Shown here in pieces: positions 2,129-42,917 of a stretch of 64,000 nucleotides of DNA. The translations under genes and the position numbers were made by a program. Each line of letters begins with the position of its first letter. Positions within the stretch are counted from its first letter, which is position 1. The DNA is from an uncultured Oceanisphaera sp. (GTDB taxonomy: Bacteria; Pseudomonadota; Gammaproteobacteria; Enterobacterales; Aeromonadaceae), in NCBI RefSeq assembly GCF_947495715.1, contig NZ_CANLZU010000009.1, forward strand, positions 62,001 through 126,000, given 5' to 3'. The notes beneath the pieces are model-generated. The model saw only the letters and a program-made list of their open reading frames with translations, had not been told where the DNA came from and ran no database searches.

Positions 2129-2284
2129 GAGGCAACACAGCCGCCTCCCTCGACACGCTATAAACCCATCCATGGGGGCTCGGAAATGCCATCTGACCGC
2201 CAGGGAGGGCGGGAATGCCGGAACGGCAGGAGCATTTTCCGGCCATGGCATTTCACGGTCGTGGGAGCCGTTCTCTGTTGCCTC
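2129..2284 (-). repeat. ANGGAT-hairpin module, minus orientation, with 50-nt insertion
   Basis: Outer arms GAGGCAACA/TGTTGCCTC (2129-2137, 2276-2284) close the module. Read on the minus strand it has hairpin A, whose arms GAAATGCCAT/ATGGCATTTC (2245-2254 and 2183-2192) are separated by inserted sequence, then hairpin B, CCC-ATGGAT-GGG (2165-2176). Deleting 2194-2243 restores GAAATGCC-ATGGAT-GGCATTTC exactly, so the insertion split the hexaloop between ATG and GAT. Confidence 0.7.
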
Positions 2285-2339
2285 TTCTGGAACACCGAGT
2301 TTCCTGTAAACGGCGCCAACAGGCGACTCAGCGGCATCA

Positions 2340-2455
2340 AGGAGGGCAAAGGGATCTGCTCCAGCGACCATCACATGACAAGGATGTCATGTGCTGAGCG
2401 TCACATGGATGTGCTTGCAGCGGGTCGGTGGGACAGACCCTTTGTCCGACGTTTA
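2340..2455 (+). repeat. ANGGAT-hairpin module, plus orientation
   Basis: Outer arms GGCAAAGGG / CCCTTTGTCC enclose hairpin A, CACATGAC-AAGGAT-GTCATGTG (2372-2393, 8 perfect pairs), and hairpin B, CAC-ATGGAT-GTG (2402-2413), followed by TTGCAGCGGGTCGG. It aligns with 41752-41855 and, in reverse complement, with 41590-41698. Confidence 0.75.
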
Positions 2456-2496
2456 TACAGAAATGAAATAGATCATTTCTTTAATGTAATTGGTAT

Positions 2497-2588: not shown

Positions 2589-4454
2589 TTAGCGCTGCTG
2601 ATATTCCCGAACGGACTTCACCATGCCGTCGGCATCCAGGCCCAGTTTGGCCAGGATCTGCTGCTGGTTGCCTTGCTCGACAAAGACATCGGGCAGGCCC
2701 AGATTCAGTACCGGTACCGGTTTCTTGTGGCGCATCAGGCACTCAACCACTGCCGAGCCGGCGCCGCCCATGATGGCGTTTTCTTCCACCGTTACCAGCA
2801 TGTCGTGCTCGGCCAGCAAGGACAGCAGCAGGGCTTCGTCCAGCGGTTTCACAAAGCGCATGTCCACCAGGGTGGCATCCAGCTGCTCGGCGGCGGCTTC
2901 GGCTTCCACCAGCAGGGTACCGAAGTTCAGCAGGGCAATGCGCTTGCCTTTACGGATACGGCGGCCCTTGCCTATTTCCAGGGCGGTCATGGTGTCATCA
3001 ACCTCGGCACCGCTGCCGTTGCCGCGGGGGTAACGCACCGCCGCCGGCCCCTGATGTTGGTAACCGGTGTAGAGCATCTGTCGGCATTCGTTTTCGTCCG
3101 CTGGCGTCATGATCACCATGTTTGGCACGGTGCGCATAAAGCTCAGGTCAAAGGCGCCCTGATGGGTGGGACCGTCGGCGCCGACGATGCCGGCCCGGTC
3201 GATGGCGAACAACACGTCCAGTTCCTGCAATGCCACATCGTGGATCAGCTGATCGTAGGCTCGCTGCAGAAAGGTGGAGTAGATGGCGACCACCGGTTTC
3301 TTGCCCTCGATGGCCATGCCTGCCGCCAGGGTCACCGCATGCTGCTCGGCGATGGCCACATCGAAATAGCGTTTGGGGAATTCCCGTGAAAAACGCACCA
3401 GACCGGAGCCTTCGCGCATGGCCGGGGTAATGGCCATCAACTGCGGGCAGGTTCTGGCCATGTCGCACAGCCAGTTACCGAAAATGGTGGAATAGCTGGG
3501 CCCGGAGGAGGGTGCCTTCGGCAGCACGCTGTCGCTGGGATCGAACTTGGGTACGCCGTGGTAGCCGATGGGATCCTGCTCGGCCGGCAGGTAGCCCTTG
3601 CCCTTGCGGGTCATGATATGCAGAAACTGCGGCCCCTTGAGCTTGCGCATGTTGCGCAGGGTCTCGACCAGGGTATGGATGTCGTGGCCGTCGATGGGGC
3701 CGACATAATTGAAGCCGAATTCTTCAAACAAGGTACCGGGAATCACCATGCCCTTGAGGTGTTCTTCGGTACGACGGGCCAGCTCCTTCAGCGGTGGCAG
3801 TATTTCCAGCGCCTTCTTGCCGCCTTCGCGCAGGCTGCTGTACAGCGAGCCGGACATGATCCGCGCCAGATGGTTGTTGAGCGCGCCGACGTTTTCCGAA
3901 ATCGACATTTCGTTGTCGTTGAGGATCACCAGCATGTCTTTGTGAATATCGCCCGCATGGTTCAGCGCTTCAAACGCCATGCCCGCGGTAATGGCGCCGT
4001 CACCGATAATGGCGGCGACCTTGCGGCCCTGCTGCTCGTCGGCGGCCGCAATGGCCATGCCCAGCGCCGCCCCTATGCTGGTACTGGAGTGCCCGACACA
4101 CAGGGTGTCGTACTCGCTCTCGTCCCGCCAGGGAAAAGGATGCAGCCCCTGATATTGACGAATGCTGTTCATGCGCTCACGCCGGCCGGTCAATATCTTG
4201 TGCGGGTATGCCTGATGGCCCACGTCCCATACCAGACGGTCGAAGGGGGTGTTATAGACGTAATGCAGCGCCACGGTCAGCTCTACCACCCCCAGGCCGG
4301 AGGCCAGGTGGCCGCTGCTGCGGCTGACCGAGTGCAGCAGGTAGGATCTCAGCTCGTCGCACAGGGCGGGCAGTCGCTCCTGGGGCAGACTGCGCAGCTC
4401 ATCGGGCAGGTTGGCCAGCGCCAGGGTCGGGTAATCGGCAATATTCAGACTCAT
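2589..4454 (-). CDS. dxs: 1-deoxy-D-xylulose-5-phosphate synthase
   Basis: 621 residues, the family's usual length. It condenses pyruvate and glyceraldehyde 3-phosphate with thiamine diphosphate, the first step of the MEP isoprenoid pathway, and its product also feeds thiamine and pyridoxal synthesis. Visible are [16 protein letters not shown] near residue 49, the ThDP/Mg motif [19 protein letters not shown] near 155 with NDNEMSIS completing it, and the transketolase C-terminal half with [15 protein letters not shown]. It is the last gene of a minus-strand xseB-ispA-dxs operon, 21 bases after ispA, with GCGAGGA upstream of the start. Confidence 0.98.
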
Positions 4455-4475
4455 AAGCTTCTTATTGTCCTCGCC

Positions 4476-5351
4476 CTAGTAATCGCGTTTCACGATGTAA
4501 TGAGCGAATGCTTCCAGTATTTGAGTAGGATGGGGGATATCGGCCAGCGCCGACAACGCCTGCTGCTGTAGCTCGTTCGCCAGACTGCGGGCGCCGTCGA
4601 GGCCGAGCAGGGCCGGATAGGTGCTTTTCTGCTGCACCAGATCCTTGCCCTGGGTTTTACCCAGGGTCTGGGTGTCGGCGGTGATATCCAGAATATCGTC
4701 CTGCACCTGAAACGCCAGGCCAATGGCCTCGGCATAACGGCTGAGTGCCGTCAGGTGCGCTTCGTCCATGTTCTCGGCGCACAGCGCGCCCAGGCGAACG
4801 GCGGCACGGATAAGCGCCCCGGTCTTGTGGCGGTGCAGGCTTTCCAGGGTGGCGCTGTCTATGGTTTGGCCTTCGCACTGAATATCCAGTGCCTGGCCAC
4901 CACACATGCCGTTATAGCCGCTGGCCCGGGCCAGCTCCTGCACCATGCGCAACTGACGCTCGGCACCCAGGCCGCTGTGGTGTCGGCTGAGCAGCTCGAA
5001 AGCCAGTGCCTGCAGGGCGTCACCGGCCAGAATGGCGGTGGCCTCATCGAAGGCCTTGTGCACGGTAGGCTTGCCCCGGCGCAGGTCGTCGTTATCCATG
5101 GCCGGCAGATCGTCGTGGATCAAGGAATAGGCGTGAATGCATTCTACCGCCGCCGCCGCCGCATCCAGCGCCGCGGCGTTGGCCTGACCCAGCAGCTCGC
5201 CACTGGCATACACCAGCATGGGACGAACCCGTTTGCCGCCCTGCAACAGGCCATATTCCATGGCGGCTCTCAGCCCGGGGGCGAGATGATCCTGGTCGGC
5301 AATAACATCGCTCAATACCCGCGTGATGCGTTCGTGGTAGTGCTGCTGCAT
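4476..5351 (-). CDS. ispA: (2E,6E)-farnesyl diphosphate synthase
   Basis: 291 residues from the ATG at 5351 (MQQHYHER), preferred over an upstream in-frame start at 5414 that would run into xseB; AAGGTGGG lies upstream. The enzyme builds farnesyl diphosphate from IPP and DMAPP. Both aspartate-rich motifs are present: DDLPAMDND (first, about residues 83-91) and DDILD (second, about 225), with GGKRVRP near the N-terminus. Farnesyl diphosphate goes on to ubiquinone and undecaprenyl phosphate. The gene sits between xseB and dxs, an arrangement typical of gammaproteobacteria. Confidence 0.96.
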   Translation of the reverse strand: MQQHYHERITRVLSDVIADQDHLAPGLRAAMEYGLLQGGKRVRPMLVYASGELLGQANAAALDAAAAAVECIHAYSLIHDDLPAMDNDDLRRGKPTVHKAFDEATAILAGDALQALAFELLSRHHSGLGAERQLRMVQELARASGYNGMCGGQALDIQCEGQTIDSATLESLHRHKTGALIRAAVRLGALCAENMDEAHLTALSRYAEAIGLAFQVQDDILDITADTQTLGKTQGKDLVQQKSTYPALLGLDGARSLANELQQQALSALADIPHPTQILEAFAHYIVKRDY

Positions 5352-12666: not shown

Positions 12667-13245
12667 TCAGTTACCCCCGATAAATTGCTGTACGTCGCGG
12701 TCGGCCAGCATGTCCTGCAGCAGCAGTGACAGCTGTTGGTTCAAGGCTTCCTTTACCTTGTCCAGCTCCGGGTGCAGGCGACCGGGAAACTCGGCCTGGG
12801 CGCTGCGGCGATACTGCTTGGTGACGGTGCGGCCGTCGCGCTTCAGGGTCAGCTGTATGCGCAGCTGCTGCACCACGTCGTAGCTGATATGACCGCGGAT
12901 CACCCGCGCCAGTACTTCCTGCAGCTCCAGCTCTACCTGGGTGGGGGCGCCGTTCTCGATAAAGGCGCCCTGAGTGCTCAGGCCCTGAGCCAGCGCCTGT
13001 TCCAGTTGCACCTTGAGGTTGTTGCTGGCGCCCACCACCACCGGGGCCTTGTTTTTCTGTTCTATCTGAATGATGTAGTCGTTGTTGCGGCCGTCCTTGC
13101 TGCCGAGTGCAACCGGCTGGCCCCGGTAAACACCGGCACTGGTTTGTACTGTGGGGTTGACGTCAACCGCGATGGGGTAGTAACTGGCGCAGGCCGTCAG
13201 GCTCAGTGCCAGGATGCCGGTCATTAACCATTTGATTAATTTCAT
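12667..13245 (-). CDS. yajG: YajG-type lipoprotein
   Basis: 192 residues. The lipobox LSLTAC places the acylated cysteine at about residue 19; the mature part has the YajG-family segments SYYPIAVDVNP and RGHISYDVVQQLRI. It is an envelope lipoprotein of unknown function, conserved next to ampG in enterobacteria, which suggests a tie to cell-wall recycling. It ends one base before the cyclophilin gene and starts 10 bases after rlmG. Confidence 0.88.
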   Translation of the reverse strand: MKLIKWLMTGILALSLTACASYYPIAVDVNPTVQTSAGVYRGQPVALGSKDGRNNDYIIQIEQKNKAPVVVGASNNLKVQLEQALAQGLSTQGAFIENGAPTQVELELQEVLARVIRGHISYDVVQQLRIQLTLKRDGRTVTKQYRRSAQAEFPGRLHPELDKVKEALNQQLSLLLQDMLADRDVQQFIGGN

Positions 13246-40442: not shown

Positions 40443-41498
40443 ATGCACTTTCAAACCGACGATATCCGCATTAACGAAATCAAAGAACTACTTCCACCGA
40501 TAGCGGTGCTGGAAAAATATCCGGCCACCGATACCGCCTCGTCGACCGTATTCGAATCACGTCAGGCCATTCACCGACTGCTGGCTGACGAAGATGATCG
40601 TCTGCTGGTGGTGATCGGTCCCTGCTCTATTCACGACACCGAGGCGGCCATCGAATATGGCAAGCGGCTCAAGGTGTTGCGCGATCACTATGCGGACAGG
40701 CTGGAAATCGTGATGCGGGTCTATTTTGAAAAGCCGCGCACCACCGTCGGCTGGAAGGGGCTGATCAACGACCCTTATCTGGACAACAGTTTTCAGATCA
40801 ACGATGGCCTGCGCACCGGTCGCAAGCTGCTGCTGGATCTCAACGATCTGGGTCTGCCCACCGCCAGCGAATTTCTCGACATGATCACGCCGCAGTATCT
40901 GGCAGATCTGATGAGCTGGGGCGCCATCGGTGCCCGCACCACCGAGTCTCAGGTACACCGTGAGCTGGCGTCCGGTCTGTCCTGCCCGGTCGGGTTCAAG
41001 AATGGTACCGACGGCACCATCAAGGTGGCGGCCGATGCCATTGGTGCCGCCAGTGCCTCGCACCACTTTCTGTCGGTAACCAAGCTGGGCCATTCCGCCA
41101 TTGTCGCCACCGCCGGCAACCCGGACTGCCATATCATTCTGCGCGGCGGCAAGGAGCCGAATTACAGCGCCGATCACGTAGCCACGGTCTGCGCCGGGCT
41201 GGAAAAAGCCGGACTGCCGCAGAAGCTGATGATCGATTTCAGCCATGCCAACAGCAGCAAGCAGTACCAGCGCCAGATGGTGGTCTGTGACGATGTCTGC
41301 ACCCAGCTGGCCGCCGGTGAGCAGGCGATCATGGGCGTGATGGTGGAAAGCCATCTGGTCGAAGGCCGTCAGGATCTGGAAGAGGGGTGCGAGCTTACCT
41401 ATGGTCAGAGCATCACCGACGCCTGCATCGGCTGGGACGATACCGAAGTCCTGCTGGCGCGACTGGCCGACGCCGTGACCGCTCGTCGTCAGGCTTGA
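40443..41498 (+). CDS. aroG: 3-deoxy-7-phosphoheptulonate synthase (DAHP synthase, class I)
   Basis: 351 residues from ATG 40443. It condenses phosphoenolpyruvate and erythrose 4-phosphate, the entry to the shikimate pathway. Signature segments are VVIGPCSIHD (near 60), the metal/PEP region EKPRTTVGWKGLINDP, IGARTTESQ and MIDFSHANSSKQ. Of the three enteric isozymes the sequence is closest to AroG (Phe-sensitive), for example DDIRINEIKELLPP at the N-terminus. No clear TyrR box was seen. A strong terminator follows. Confidence 0.93.
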   Translation: MHFQTDDIRINEIKELLPPIAVLEKYPATDTASSTVFESRQAIHRLLADEDDRLLVVIGPCSIHDTEAAIEYGKRLKVLRDHYADRLEIVMRVYFEKPRTTVGWKGLINDPYLDNSFQINDGLRTGRKLLLDLNDLGLPTASEFLDMITPQYLADLMSWGAIGARTTESQVHRELASGLSCPVGFKNGTDGTIKVAADAIGAASASHHFLSVTKLGHSAIVATAGNPDCHIILRGGKEPNYSADHVATVCAGLEKAGLPQKLMIDFSHANSSKQYQRQMVVCDDVCTQLAAGEQAIMGVMVESHLVEGRQDLEEGCELTYGQSITDACIGWDDTEVLLARLADAVTARRQA

Positions 41499-41515
41499 GT
41501 CGTCCGATAATCCGT

Positions 41516-41546
41516 TAAAAAAGGAGCCGCAAGGCTCCTTTTTGTT
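41516..41546 (+). terminator. Terminator of aroG
   Basis: AAAAAGGAGCC (41518-41528) and GGCTCCTTTTT (41533-41543) form a perfect stem with loop GCAA, 20 bases after the stop codon. Confidence 0.92.
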
Positions 41547-41589
41547 TCTCGCTCCCAAAATGCCGAGAGGCGGTTGTTTGAGTCAGGAA

Positions 41590-41698
41590 AGAGGACGAAG
41601 GGCCAGCTCCGCCGACTCGCCGTACATACATCCTTGTAGGCTCAGCCGCGCCATCCGTGGCGCGGATGGTCGGCTGAGCAGATCCCTCCGTCCTCTTT
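41590..41698 (-). repeat. ANGGAT-hairpin module, minus orientation
   Basis: Outer arms AGAGGACGAAGGG / CCCTCCGTCCTCT close the module. On the minus strand hairpin A is CCGCGCC-ACGGAT-GGCGCGG (41665 to 41646, 7 perfect pairs) and hairpin B is TAC-AAGGAT-GTA (41638 to 41627). Flanks GATCTGCTCAGCCGACC and GGCGAGTCGGC align with the other modules. Confidence 0.75.
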
Positions 41699-41751
41699 GA
41701 TACATCGGCGTTGCCGGTTGGCACCTCCTGCGGGCGACTCCCAAGCCGAAA
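41699..41751. repeat. Linker of the composite element
   Basis: The 53-base interval between the two inverted modules shares GGCGACTC and the flanking CCTCTT / AAGGAGGGCAAAGGG with 2281-2350. The shared linker shows that both loci are copies of one larger element. No gene is seen in 41499-41951. Confidence 0.6.
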
Positions 41752-41855
41752 GGAGGGCAAAGGGGATCACAGAGCCGACCGTGACATGCCATGGATGGCA
41801 TGTCCGAGCTCACATGGATGTGCTTGTAGCGTGTCGGCGTCGTGACCCCTTTGGT
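41752..41855 (+). repeat. ANGGAT-hairpin module, plus orientation
   Basis: Outer arms GGCAAAGGGG / CCCCTTTGGTC enclose hairpin A, GACATGCC-ATGGAT-GGCATGTC (41783-41804, 8 perfect pairs), and hairpin B, CAC-ATGGAT-GTG (41811-41822), then TTGTAGCGTGTCGGC. It aligns with 2340-2455. Confidence 0.78.
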
Positions 41856-41905
41856 CGACTTGTGCGGTGTTGATTGCTGCACTTTCAGCGAGTCTGGAGT
41901 GAACA

Positions 41906-41936
41906 ACAAAAAAGGAGCCTTTCGGCTCCTTTTTAA
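41906..41936. terminator. Terminator of lipA, bidirectional
   Basis: AAAAAAGGAGCC / GGCTCCTTTTT with a short TTTC loop lies just past the lipA stop on the minus strand. Its stem is nearly the same as that of the aroG terminator 390 bases away. Confidence 0.88.
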
Positions 41937-41951
41937 TGCAGGGTAGGGCGA

Positions 41952-42917
41952 TTACTTCACTTCCACACCCTGGGCCTGCAGATCCGCGTGGTAAGACGAG
42001 CGGACGAAGGGGCCGCAGGCGGCGTGGGTGAAACCGATGCTGTCGGCAATCACTTTCAGCTCGTCGAACTCTGCCGGCGGCACGTAGCGCTTCACCGGCA
42101 GGTGATGACGGCTCGGCTGCAGGTACTGGCCCAGCGTCAGCATGGTGACGTTGTGAGCACGCAGATCCTTGAGTACCTCTGCGATTTCTTCGTTGGTTTC
42201 GCCAAGGCCCATCATCAGGCCGGACTTGGTGGCTACCTGCGGGTGCATTTCCTTGAACCGGCGCAGCAGCTCCAGCGACCACTTGTAATCGGCGCCGGGA
42301 CGGGCGACGCGATACAGGCGCGGGGCGGTTTCCAGGTTGTGGTTGAACACGTCCGGCGGAGTATCCTTGAAGATTTCCAGCGCGGTGTCCATGCGGCCAC
42401 GGAAGTCCGGGGTCAGAATTTCAATCCTGGTGTTCGGGCTCTGCTCGCGAATGGCGCGAATACAGTCGACGAAGTGCTGGGCACCGCCGTCACGCAGATC
42501 GTCCCGGTCTACCGAGGTGATCACCACGTACTTGAGGCCCAGTTCCTTTATGGTCTTGGCCAGCTTGGCCGGCTCTTCCGGATCCACCGCCAGCGGGCGG
42601 CCGTGGGCCACATCGCAGAACGGGCAGCGGCGGGTACAGATGGCGCCGAGGATCATGAAGGTGGCGGTGCCGTGGTTGAAGCACTCGGGCAGGTTGGGGC
42701 AGGACGCCTCTTCGCAGACCGAATGCAGCTTGTTCTCGCGCATGATGCTCTTCAGGTTCTGTATGCGCTGGTTGCTGGGAGGAAGCTTGATCTTCATCCA
42801 CTCCGGCTTGCGCAACACTTCCTCGTCTGCCTCCGGCATGTACTTGACCGGGATCAGGGCCATCTTGTCGGCATCACGCAATTTTACGCCGGGCTCTACG
42901 CGTACAGGTTTATTCAT
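41952..42917 (-). CDS. lipA: Lipoyl synthase
   Basis: 321 residues, radical SAM enzyme that inserts two sulfurs into octanoyl groups on E2 and H proteins. The auxiliary cluster motif C-x4-C-x5-C is in [12 protein letters not shown] (about 68-79); the SAM cluster motif CTRRCPFC is at about 94-101. The C-terminal serine ligand region RSSYHAD is present. It overlaps lipB by four bases; ybeD-lipB-lipA form a unit as in E. coli. Confidence 0.98.

Follow-up and report, generated by a model that had tools for sequence, protein, structure and literature searches.

The window analyzed here, a stretch of 64,000 nucleotides of DNA from an uncultured Oceanisphaera sp., contains, between two genes that we take from their translations to be a DAHP synthase gene and lipA, a composite of two inverted modules. 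The module is a structure-conserved dispersed repeat of the Gammaproteobacteria that is real, widespread and RNA-like. Of the explanations considered, the one toward which we lean on balance is that of a dispersed element that would, upon transcription of its GGA strand, yield a preformed two-site module for CsrA/RsmA. The free pool of this global regulator is generally believed to depend mainly on a small set of dedicated small RNAs. The features of the window are listed in Table 1.

Table 1. Modules, hairpins and flanking features in the window (positions of the 64,000-nt stretch; a dot marks features without an assigned strand).
Feature	Position	Strand	Details
Composite at the lipA locus	41583-41866	modules minus then plus	~285 bp
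Module A (P1 + P2 + P3, three-way junction)	41583..41703	-	R1 covariance model 118 bits, E 1.9e-35
P2 hairpin, module A	41646..41665	-	CCGCGCC-ACGGAT-GGCGCGG, loop ACGGAT
P3 hairpin, module A	41627..41638	-	TAC-AAGGAT-GTA
Linker between modules A and B	41704..41744	.	41 nt, imperfect inverted repeat
Module B (P1 + P2 + P3), mirror of module A	41745..41866	+	R1 117.5 bits, E 2.9e-35
P2 hairpin, module B	41783..41804	+	GACATGCC-ATGGAT-GGCATGTC, loop ATGGAT
P3 hairpin, module B	41811..41822	+	CAC-ATGGAT-GTG
Second composite in the window, left module, diverged	2139..2274	-	R1 64.8 bits, E 2.9e-18
Second composite in the window, right module	2334..2457	+	R1 98.2 bits, E 4.9e-29
Flanking terminator-like hairpin, downstream of the putative DAHP synthase gene	41517..41543	.	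direct repeat D1 and inverted repeat I2 with 41908-41934; unflagged by terminator scan
Flanking terminator-like hairpin, 3' of the putative lipA gene	41908..41934	.	inverted repeat with 41517..41543; terminator scan

On the GGA strand, each module is composed of a long stem P1 followed by the hairpins P2 and P3, all joined at a three-way junction. P2 comprises 7-8 bp plus a short extension and a loop ANGGAN, and P3 has two three-pair segments, lower and upper, with a five-base bulge between them on its 3' side, and a loop ANGGAN; in the window modules both hexaloops have this form and are closed by a C-G pair. In some modules GTAG, which like CGTC serves as the end tag of REP/RAYT repeats, lies within the P3 bulge, not at the module end. 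Two modules in inverted orientation, pointing outward and separated by a palindromic linker of usually 41 nt, make up a composite. The first-pass annotation of this DNA had described four ANGGAT hairpins with pairing outer arms at 41590..41855; all four hairpins are present, the outer arms do pair, and the element lies where it was placed, but its true limits are slightly wider (Table 1). Against dinucleotide shuffles, fold stability corresponds to z values of -6.8 for module A (41583-41700) and -5.8 for module B (41755-41858), and 0 of 200 shuffles was as stable in either case. The R1 E values of these two modules are partly self-scored, as both were among the sequences used to build the model. 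In the predicted fold of a plus-strand transcript of the whole element, modules A and B pair together and P3 is sequestered; in that of the minus-strand transcript the two modules stay separate. The plus-strand fold speaks against the CsrA reading.

The proposal of a dispersed repeat was borne out by the genome itself, in which the plus-strand P2 hairpin pattern with up to three mismatches has 77 matches (41 forward and 36 reverse, where palindromic copies may score on both strands), against 0 for a reversed-pattern control. A covariance-model search of this genome and its relatives, suggested at the same time, was run and returned hundreds of copies in many genera, including at least 150 R1 matches in this genome. 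Subsequently, 100 stretches around R1 matches (605,651 bases) were searched with R2, a model with both hexaloops replaced by N, which gave 237 matches at E <=1e-5 and, after removal of 20 overlapping opposite-strand matches, 217 modules; because the stretches had been chosen by R1, which contains the loops, this set retains some loop bias. One of 16 masked modules (L070:2413-2533) was left out. The 217 modules correspond to 133 elements, and 164 of them are arranged in 82 minus/plus composites with a linker of exactly 41 nt in 61 cases and of 39-41 nt in 75. Some arms have an insert of ~50-100 nt in P2 or P3 (L112:8322-8493, L106:2592-2764, L118:2679-2935, L177:708-878, and others); judged by eye, the P2 inserts may hold a P2-like hairpin on the opposite strand whose loop is ANGGA.

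Under the loop-masked model, six-base loops have the sequence ANGGA in 173 of 175 cases for P2 and in 194 of 200 for P3, and the C-G closing pair is found in 173/175 and 198/200, respectively. Both loops are six-base in 163 of the 217 modules, 159 of which carry ANGGA at both; the other 54 have at least one loop that was called with a length of four, five or seven bases or with the ~50-100 nt insert, and these off-length loops were left out of the counts and their six-base partners counted. The spacing of the two GGA motifs, put at about 23 in the first-pass annotation, is indeed 23 nt in 102 of 159 modules measured; it falls within 22-25 nt in 153 and amounts to 30 nt in six. Loop position 2 is free (T49 A24 G79 C23 in loop 1), and mimicry of a Shine-Dalgarno sequence is disfavored for that reason.

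Loops that vary freely while the stems stay had been named as the outcome that would speak against CsrA, and the opposite was found: the stems covary and the loops hold. An alignment of ten modules has 90% standard pair cells, compared with 36-45% after shifting the partners by 1 to 3 columns, and double-sided changes in 24 of 41 pairs against a shuffled mean of 12.9; its structure was drawn on those same sequences, and the later tests weigh more. In a cross-family core alignment of 16 sequences, 95% of cells are paired, 21 of 25 pairs have double changes, and the covariation score is 0.76 vs 0.22 after shuffling. One of 14 core modules, L061:1348-1454 with a short P2, was dropped, and one module-selection step kept only modules with two CANGGANG loops. 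Read on the GGA strand, G.U cells exceed A.C cells by 359 to 107 in this genome (distinct rows; G.U in excess in 28 pairs, A.C in four), by 181 to 19 at the 29 best-paired positions and by 74 to 9 in named loci of other organisms, although copies share ancestry and the cells are therefore not independent. This asymmetry says that the GGA strand is the folding strand, as RNA or single-stranded DNA alike. Tolerance of G.T is equally expected of a single-stranded DNA hairpin, which counts against the CsrA reading.

The same fold recurs far beyond this genome. DNA of Oceanisphaera psychrotolerans and Zobellella iuensis aligns with this genome at 82.6-88.4%, which points to an Aeromonadaceae host related to Oceanisphaera; Alcanivorax, considered at first, was rejected as the host. 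Modules were detected by R1 in all 22 same-genus genomes, in 2 of 2 same-family genomes and in 4 of 16 same-order genomes; eleven modules of relatives, seven of them from outside the genus, have two CANGGANG loops in all cases. The minimum-energy folds of relatives' modules mostly contain the same three-way junction (e.g., L058, L060, L062 and L065), those of L061:1501-1618 and L064 being different. With the core model R3 at E <=1e-5, applied to the best 11-15 candidates per genome, modules were found in 67 of 295 genomes and 19 of 99 genera of the order, in 71 of 369 genomes and 64 of 272 genera of the class, and in 29 of 398 genomes of the phylum, all 29 belonging to Gammaproteobacteria. An exact pattern with 22 fixed bases matched at least 119 stretches, from Xanthomonas and Stenotrophomonas to Shewanella, Marinobacter, Microbulbifer and Oceanisphaera, 80 of which were used in later analyses. 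Among 20 pattern-bearing genomes, the R3 count is lowest in Candidatus Pseudomonas excrementavium (8) and reaches 102 in S. maltophilia D457, 132 in Marinobacter azerbaijanicus, and at least 150 in both Oceanisphaera arctica and Xanthomonas sp. LMG 31884.

The loop-masked model identified 123 modules on 85 loci, namely 77 of the 80 pattern loci (without L231, L271 and L272) and eight added loci. The GGA fetching pattern is lacking in the matched stretch of 23 of these modules, 19 of which still have ANGGA in both loops. Ten of the 23 are on loci fetched with the loop-containing R3 (one lost a GGA), and L299 is a cut-off pattern copy; the remaining 12, from other genera, comprise nine with both loops ANGGA and three in which one loop is ANGGA and the other, shorter or shifted, keeps AGGA. 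In 27 named loci that were folded (33 modules), P1 is mostly long and its sequence varies between genera, and in Xanthomonas modules inspected by eye the arm sequences are common within the genus. The P1 paired run, counted from 10 nt inside the model ends in 114 modules, extends over 3 to 46 bp and over 20-35 bp in 84 of them, which exceeds the expected need of CsrA and counts against the CsrA reading. Two IMG/VR viral contigs match the two-loop pattern (L405:1627-1672; L406:10649-10694 and 13056-13101), and blastn gave no match to the window element in plasmids and phages.

CsrA is the best candidate partner of the putative RNA module. The likeness to the CsrA consensus noted in the first-pass annotation proved close, as the loops equal the CsrA/RsmE hexaloop motif CANGGANG given in sections of PMC6849547 and PMC4894983, where the consensus is credited to Schubert et al. 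2007. According to a section of PMC4894983, two adjacent GGA hexaloops in flaA that are 21 nt apart titrate CsrA, the optimum being 18 nt. The features expected of a CsrA site from sequence, i.e., C-G-closed ANGGA hexaloops, a bridgeable two-site spacing and CsrA in the host, are all found. Two-site CsrA/RsmA RNAs, such as the RsmZ/CsrB-class sRNAs and the C. jejuni flaA leader, share with the module the CANGGANG hexaloops, the ~20 nt spacing and the C-G closing pair; however, they are single genes or leaders, whereas the module is a three-way junction present in tens to hundreds of dispersed copies and a predicted binder. Likened by description only, the ISPpu8-linked Rsm targets of P. putida are also palindromic and intergenic, and their RNA was recovered with three Rsm proteins: in the part of PMC7937890 that describes them, intergenic regions that adjoin ISPpu8 or resemble its insertion sites are listed as targets shared by the three Rsm proteins, and one such region is called a long palindromic region. 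A dispersed repeat of CsrA sites was not recognized in literature searches, which left most subscription journals uncovered. CsrR1 in the hfq 5'UTR was considered as a transcribed copy; neither a module nor an ANGGA hairpin occurs upstream of hfq in seven genomes, but none of these is shown to be A. dieselolei, and the result has no bearing on CsrR1 itself.

This genome encodes one intact CsrA, a 63-aa ORF with a PF02599 match, and CsrA is present in all 41 relatives. Across the class, it was found in 313 of 369 genomes, including 66 of 71 element-bearing vs 247 of 298 other genomes (Fisher p 0.04; lists of element and CsrA genomes compared by eye) and, among high-quality genomes, 58 of 59 vs 222 of 255 (p 0.009). 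The element-bearing genomes without a CsrA match are G319, G380, G411, G506 and G652, four of which are <90% complete and one, G506, 98%. This association weakly supports the CsrA reading because genome reduction removes both, and it is confounded by phylogeny as well.

The elements occupy a distinct position relative to genes. Within the 100 stretches, 0 of 133 element midpoints fall within genes predicted by a home-made gene finder; convergent, co-directional and divergent gaps contain 63, 62 and 5 elements, respectively (3 more are at stretch edges), whereas the 193 element-free gaps of >=50 nt in the same stretches divide into 19, 108 and 66. Co-directional elements are closer to the upstream gene in 46 of 62 cases, at a median of 64 nt past the upstream stop vs 128.5 nt ahead of the next start, and of the 63 convergent elements, 19 are preceded by a terminator-like site on the side of the left gene and 26 on that of the right gene. 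Named loci also avoid divergent gaps (7/62 vs 50/166, p 0.003), with a weaker convergent excess (15/62 vs 22/166, p 0.07). This location would suit a REP/BIME-like 3'-end hairpin that stabilizes transcript ends or aids termination without CsrA, its loops being kept for stability, and a tail-to-tail bias is described for P. fluorescens repeats in part of PMC2718517. Nevertheless, we consider this explanation quite improbable: selection against insertion near promoters would give the same location bias, the window modules are without a strong T tract at their ends, and a pair of separate ANGGA loops whose second base is free is no general stability motif.

Known repeat families resemble the element in part. 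REP/BIME repeats and REPINs with their RAYT are likewise dispersed intergenic palindromes, often inverted doublets and mostly at gene 3' ends, but their hairpins span 20-40 bp, whereas the arm of the element is ~120 nt long, with a three-way junction, RNA-motif loops and no RAYT link found; part of the REPIN/BIME anatomy used in this comparison is general background. The earlier alternative of a REP-type hairpin therefore fails in its strict form on size, the REP/RAYT definition in a section of PMC3733652 being a small palindrome of 20-40 bp, and survives as a single-stranded DNA mobile hairpin, the main rival discussed below. The TIR families of S. maltophilia, which flank TIRYT genes, share self-complementary repeats in dimers, and modules also occur in S. 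maltophilia; they differ in that the module loci examined have no nearby Y1-like frame. This comparison is by the description in part of PMC3733652, and the TIR families may overlap with the module family. Together with PMC2718517 and PMC2267715, that paper describes the nearest published repeat families.

The first-pass annotation had also envisaged host transcripts under CsrA control, and a bidirectional terminator as an alternative. The named loci contain 89 module groups. Between co-directional genes, 18 single modules are in the sense and 12 in the antisense orientation (p 0.36); 17 other single modules lie in convergent (11) or divergent (6) gaps, 2 are inside predicted genes and 25 groups are at locus edges. 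Because single modules thus have no significant orientation bias and the window copy sits between two terminator-like hairpins, the data lend no support to a general control of host transcripts in cis. A bidirectional terminator appears unlikely for the window copy, where no strong T tract was found at the ends of modules A and B and the terminator scan gave a single weak match, within P1 of module A (minus strand 41613-41594), and none in module B. Each module might instead be a small-RNA gene of its own, an RsmY/RsmZ-like sponge multiplied by duplication, as the dual CsrA-type hairpins, the divergent modules of composites and the terminator-like hairpins around the window copy could suggest. 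However, no sigma-70-like promoter was found in 41480-41970 and no promoter-like site in or around the linker of the window copy, and no gathering-level sRNA match of Rfam release 15 was obtained in the window or in 15 named loci (the window gave no gathering match at all, the named loci tRNA only), which makes this possibility very remote in our view. The best sub-threshold Rfam match in 41560-41900 is the Yersinia sRNA Ysr224 (26.8 bits vs a gathering threshold of 70, E 3.5e-4), spanning 41567-41672 on the plus strand, opposite the GGA strand of module A.

At the lipA locus, the element is present or absent among relatives. The hairpins flanking the window copy are near-identical (26-nt inverted match, 96%), the element of the relative G009 is the same apart from an insert in one P2, and in several element-free relatives there is a single such hairpin. 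Of the MITE traits, terminal inverted repeats and a target-site duplication, the inverted arms are present; since both sides of the window copy carry the hairpin and element-free relatives have one, the locus fits insertion or loss by recombination between two terminators alike. Copy number, arm sharing within a genus and this presence/absence suggest spread, and they lead to the main rival of the CsrA reading, according to which the module is mobile single-stranded hairpin DNA: the strand would fold in replication, a putative recombinase or transposase would read the loops, and the likeness to CsrA sites would be coincidental or secondary. The near-constant linker, the tandem array at L390 and the lack of significant orientation bias fit this rival as well. 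On the other side, 0 modules occur in 28 Y1/RAYT stretches, which represent 27 distinct loci and 90.6 kb and do not include the TIRYT loci of S. maltophilia, and 15 Y1 protein segments, searched without a positive control, gave 0 matches at 1e-3 in 237 loci, all fetched for modules except seven hfq stretches. Same-genus genomes without a PF01797 match still carry at least 26, at least 53 and at least 81 modules, no enzyme was found in the material searched, and both loops fit a known RNA-protein motif at every specified position. Weighing these observations, we consider the mobile hairpin rather unlikely, though it comes next after the two-site CsrA module.

Two candidates for the agent of spread were rejected: a RAYT or IS200/605 mover, for which no Y1/RAYT link appeared in the stretches and loci searched, and an autonomous copy with an ORF between outward modules, as the ORF lists of three such loci read as ordinary genes or a tandem array. 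In this genome, an IS605-like tnpA/tnpB element adjoins a stretch (L170:60-130) that looks, on inspection by eye, like a truncated arm of a module; R3 detects no module there at E <=0.01. The array at L390 (G841, 3431-4646) consists of six head-to-tail modules with a period of ~227 nt, and each unit also holds a motif that we take to resemble a Pseudomonas-type REP (GGCTGAAGCCGCTCCTACA).

Returning to the two-site CsrA module, we infer the following scenario from the structure and placement of the repeat. The GGA strand would be transcribed by read-through past gene 3' ends or by pervasive transcription, and any transcript crossing a composite from either side would have one sense module, because the modules point outward. 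This RNA would fold as a ready two-site module for one CsrA/RsmA dimer, and hundreds of low-level copies could together act as a distributed CsrA sink; alternatively, they could be local CsrA-held hairpins at 3' ends. The putative role of the modules is probably that of a sink or a 3'-end platform. Apart from the points named above, this reading is weakened by the 18 to 12 orientation count, by the five element-bearing genomes without a CsrA match and, for the window copy, by the missing sigma-70-like promoter and the terminator-like hairpins on both sides. The broader proposal that class-wide dispersed RNA modules form a distributed CsrA/RsmA buffer, in which spread of the repeat tunes the free regulator pool and CsrA holds or marks 3' ends, is possible but doubtful at present. 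If CsrA binding is confirmed, the modules would represent a large unrecognized class of CsrA-binding RNA, and hundreds of matching two-site modules per genome would alter the accounting of CsrA and give a repeat an RNA-level role. Even without CsrA, annotation would gain a conserved family of considerable size, the structure of which is kept from Xanthomonas and Stenotrophomonas to Shewanella, Marinobacter and Oceanisphaera and which has no gathering-level Rfam match in the loci scanned.
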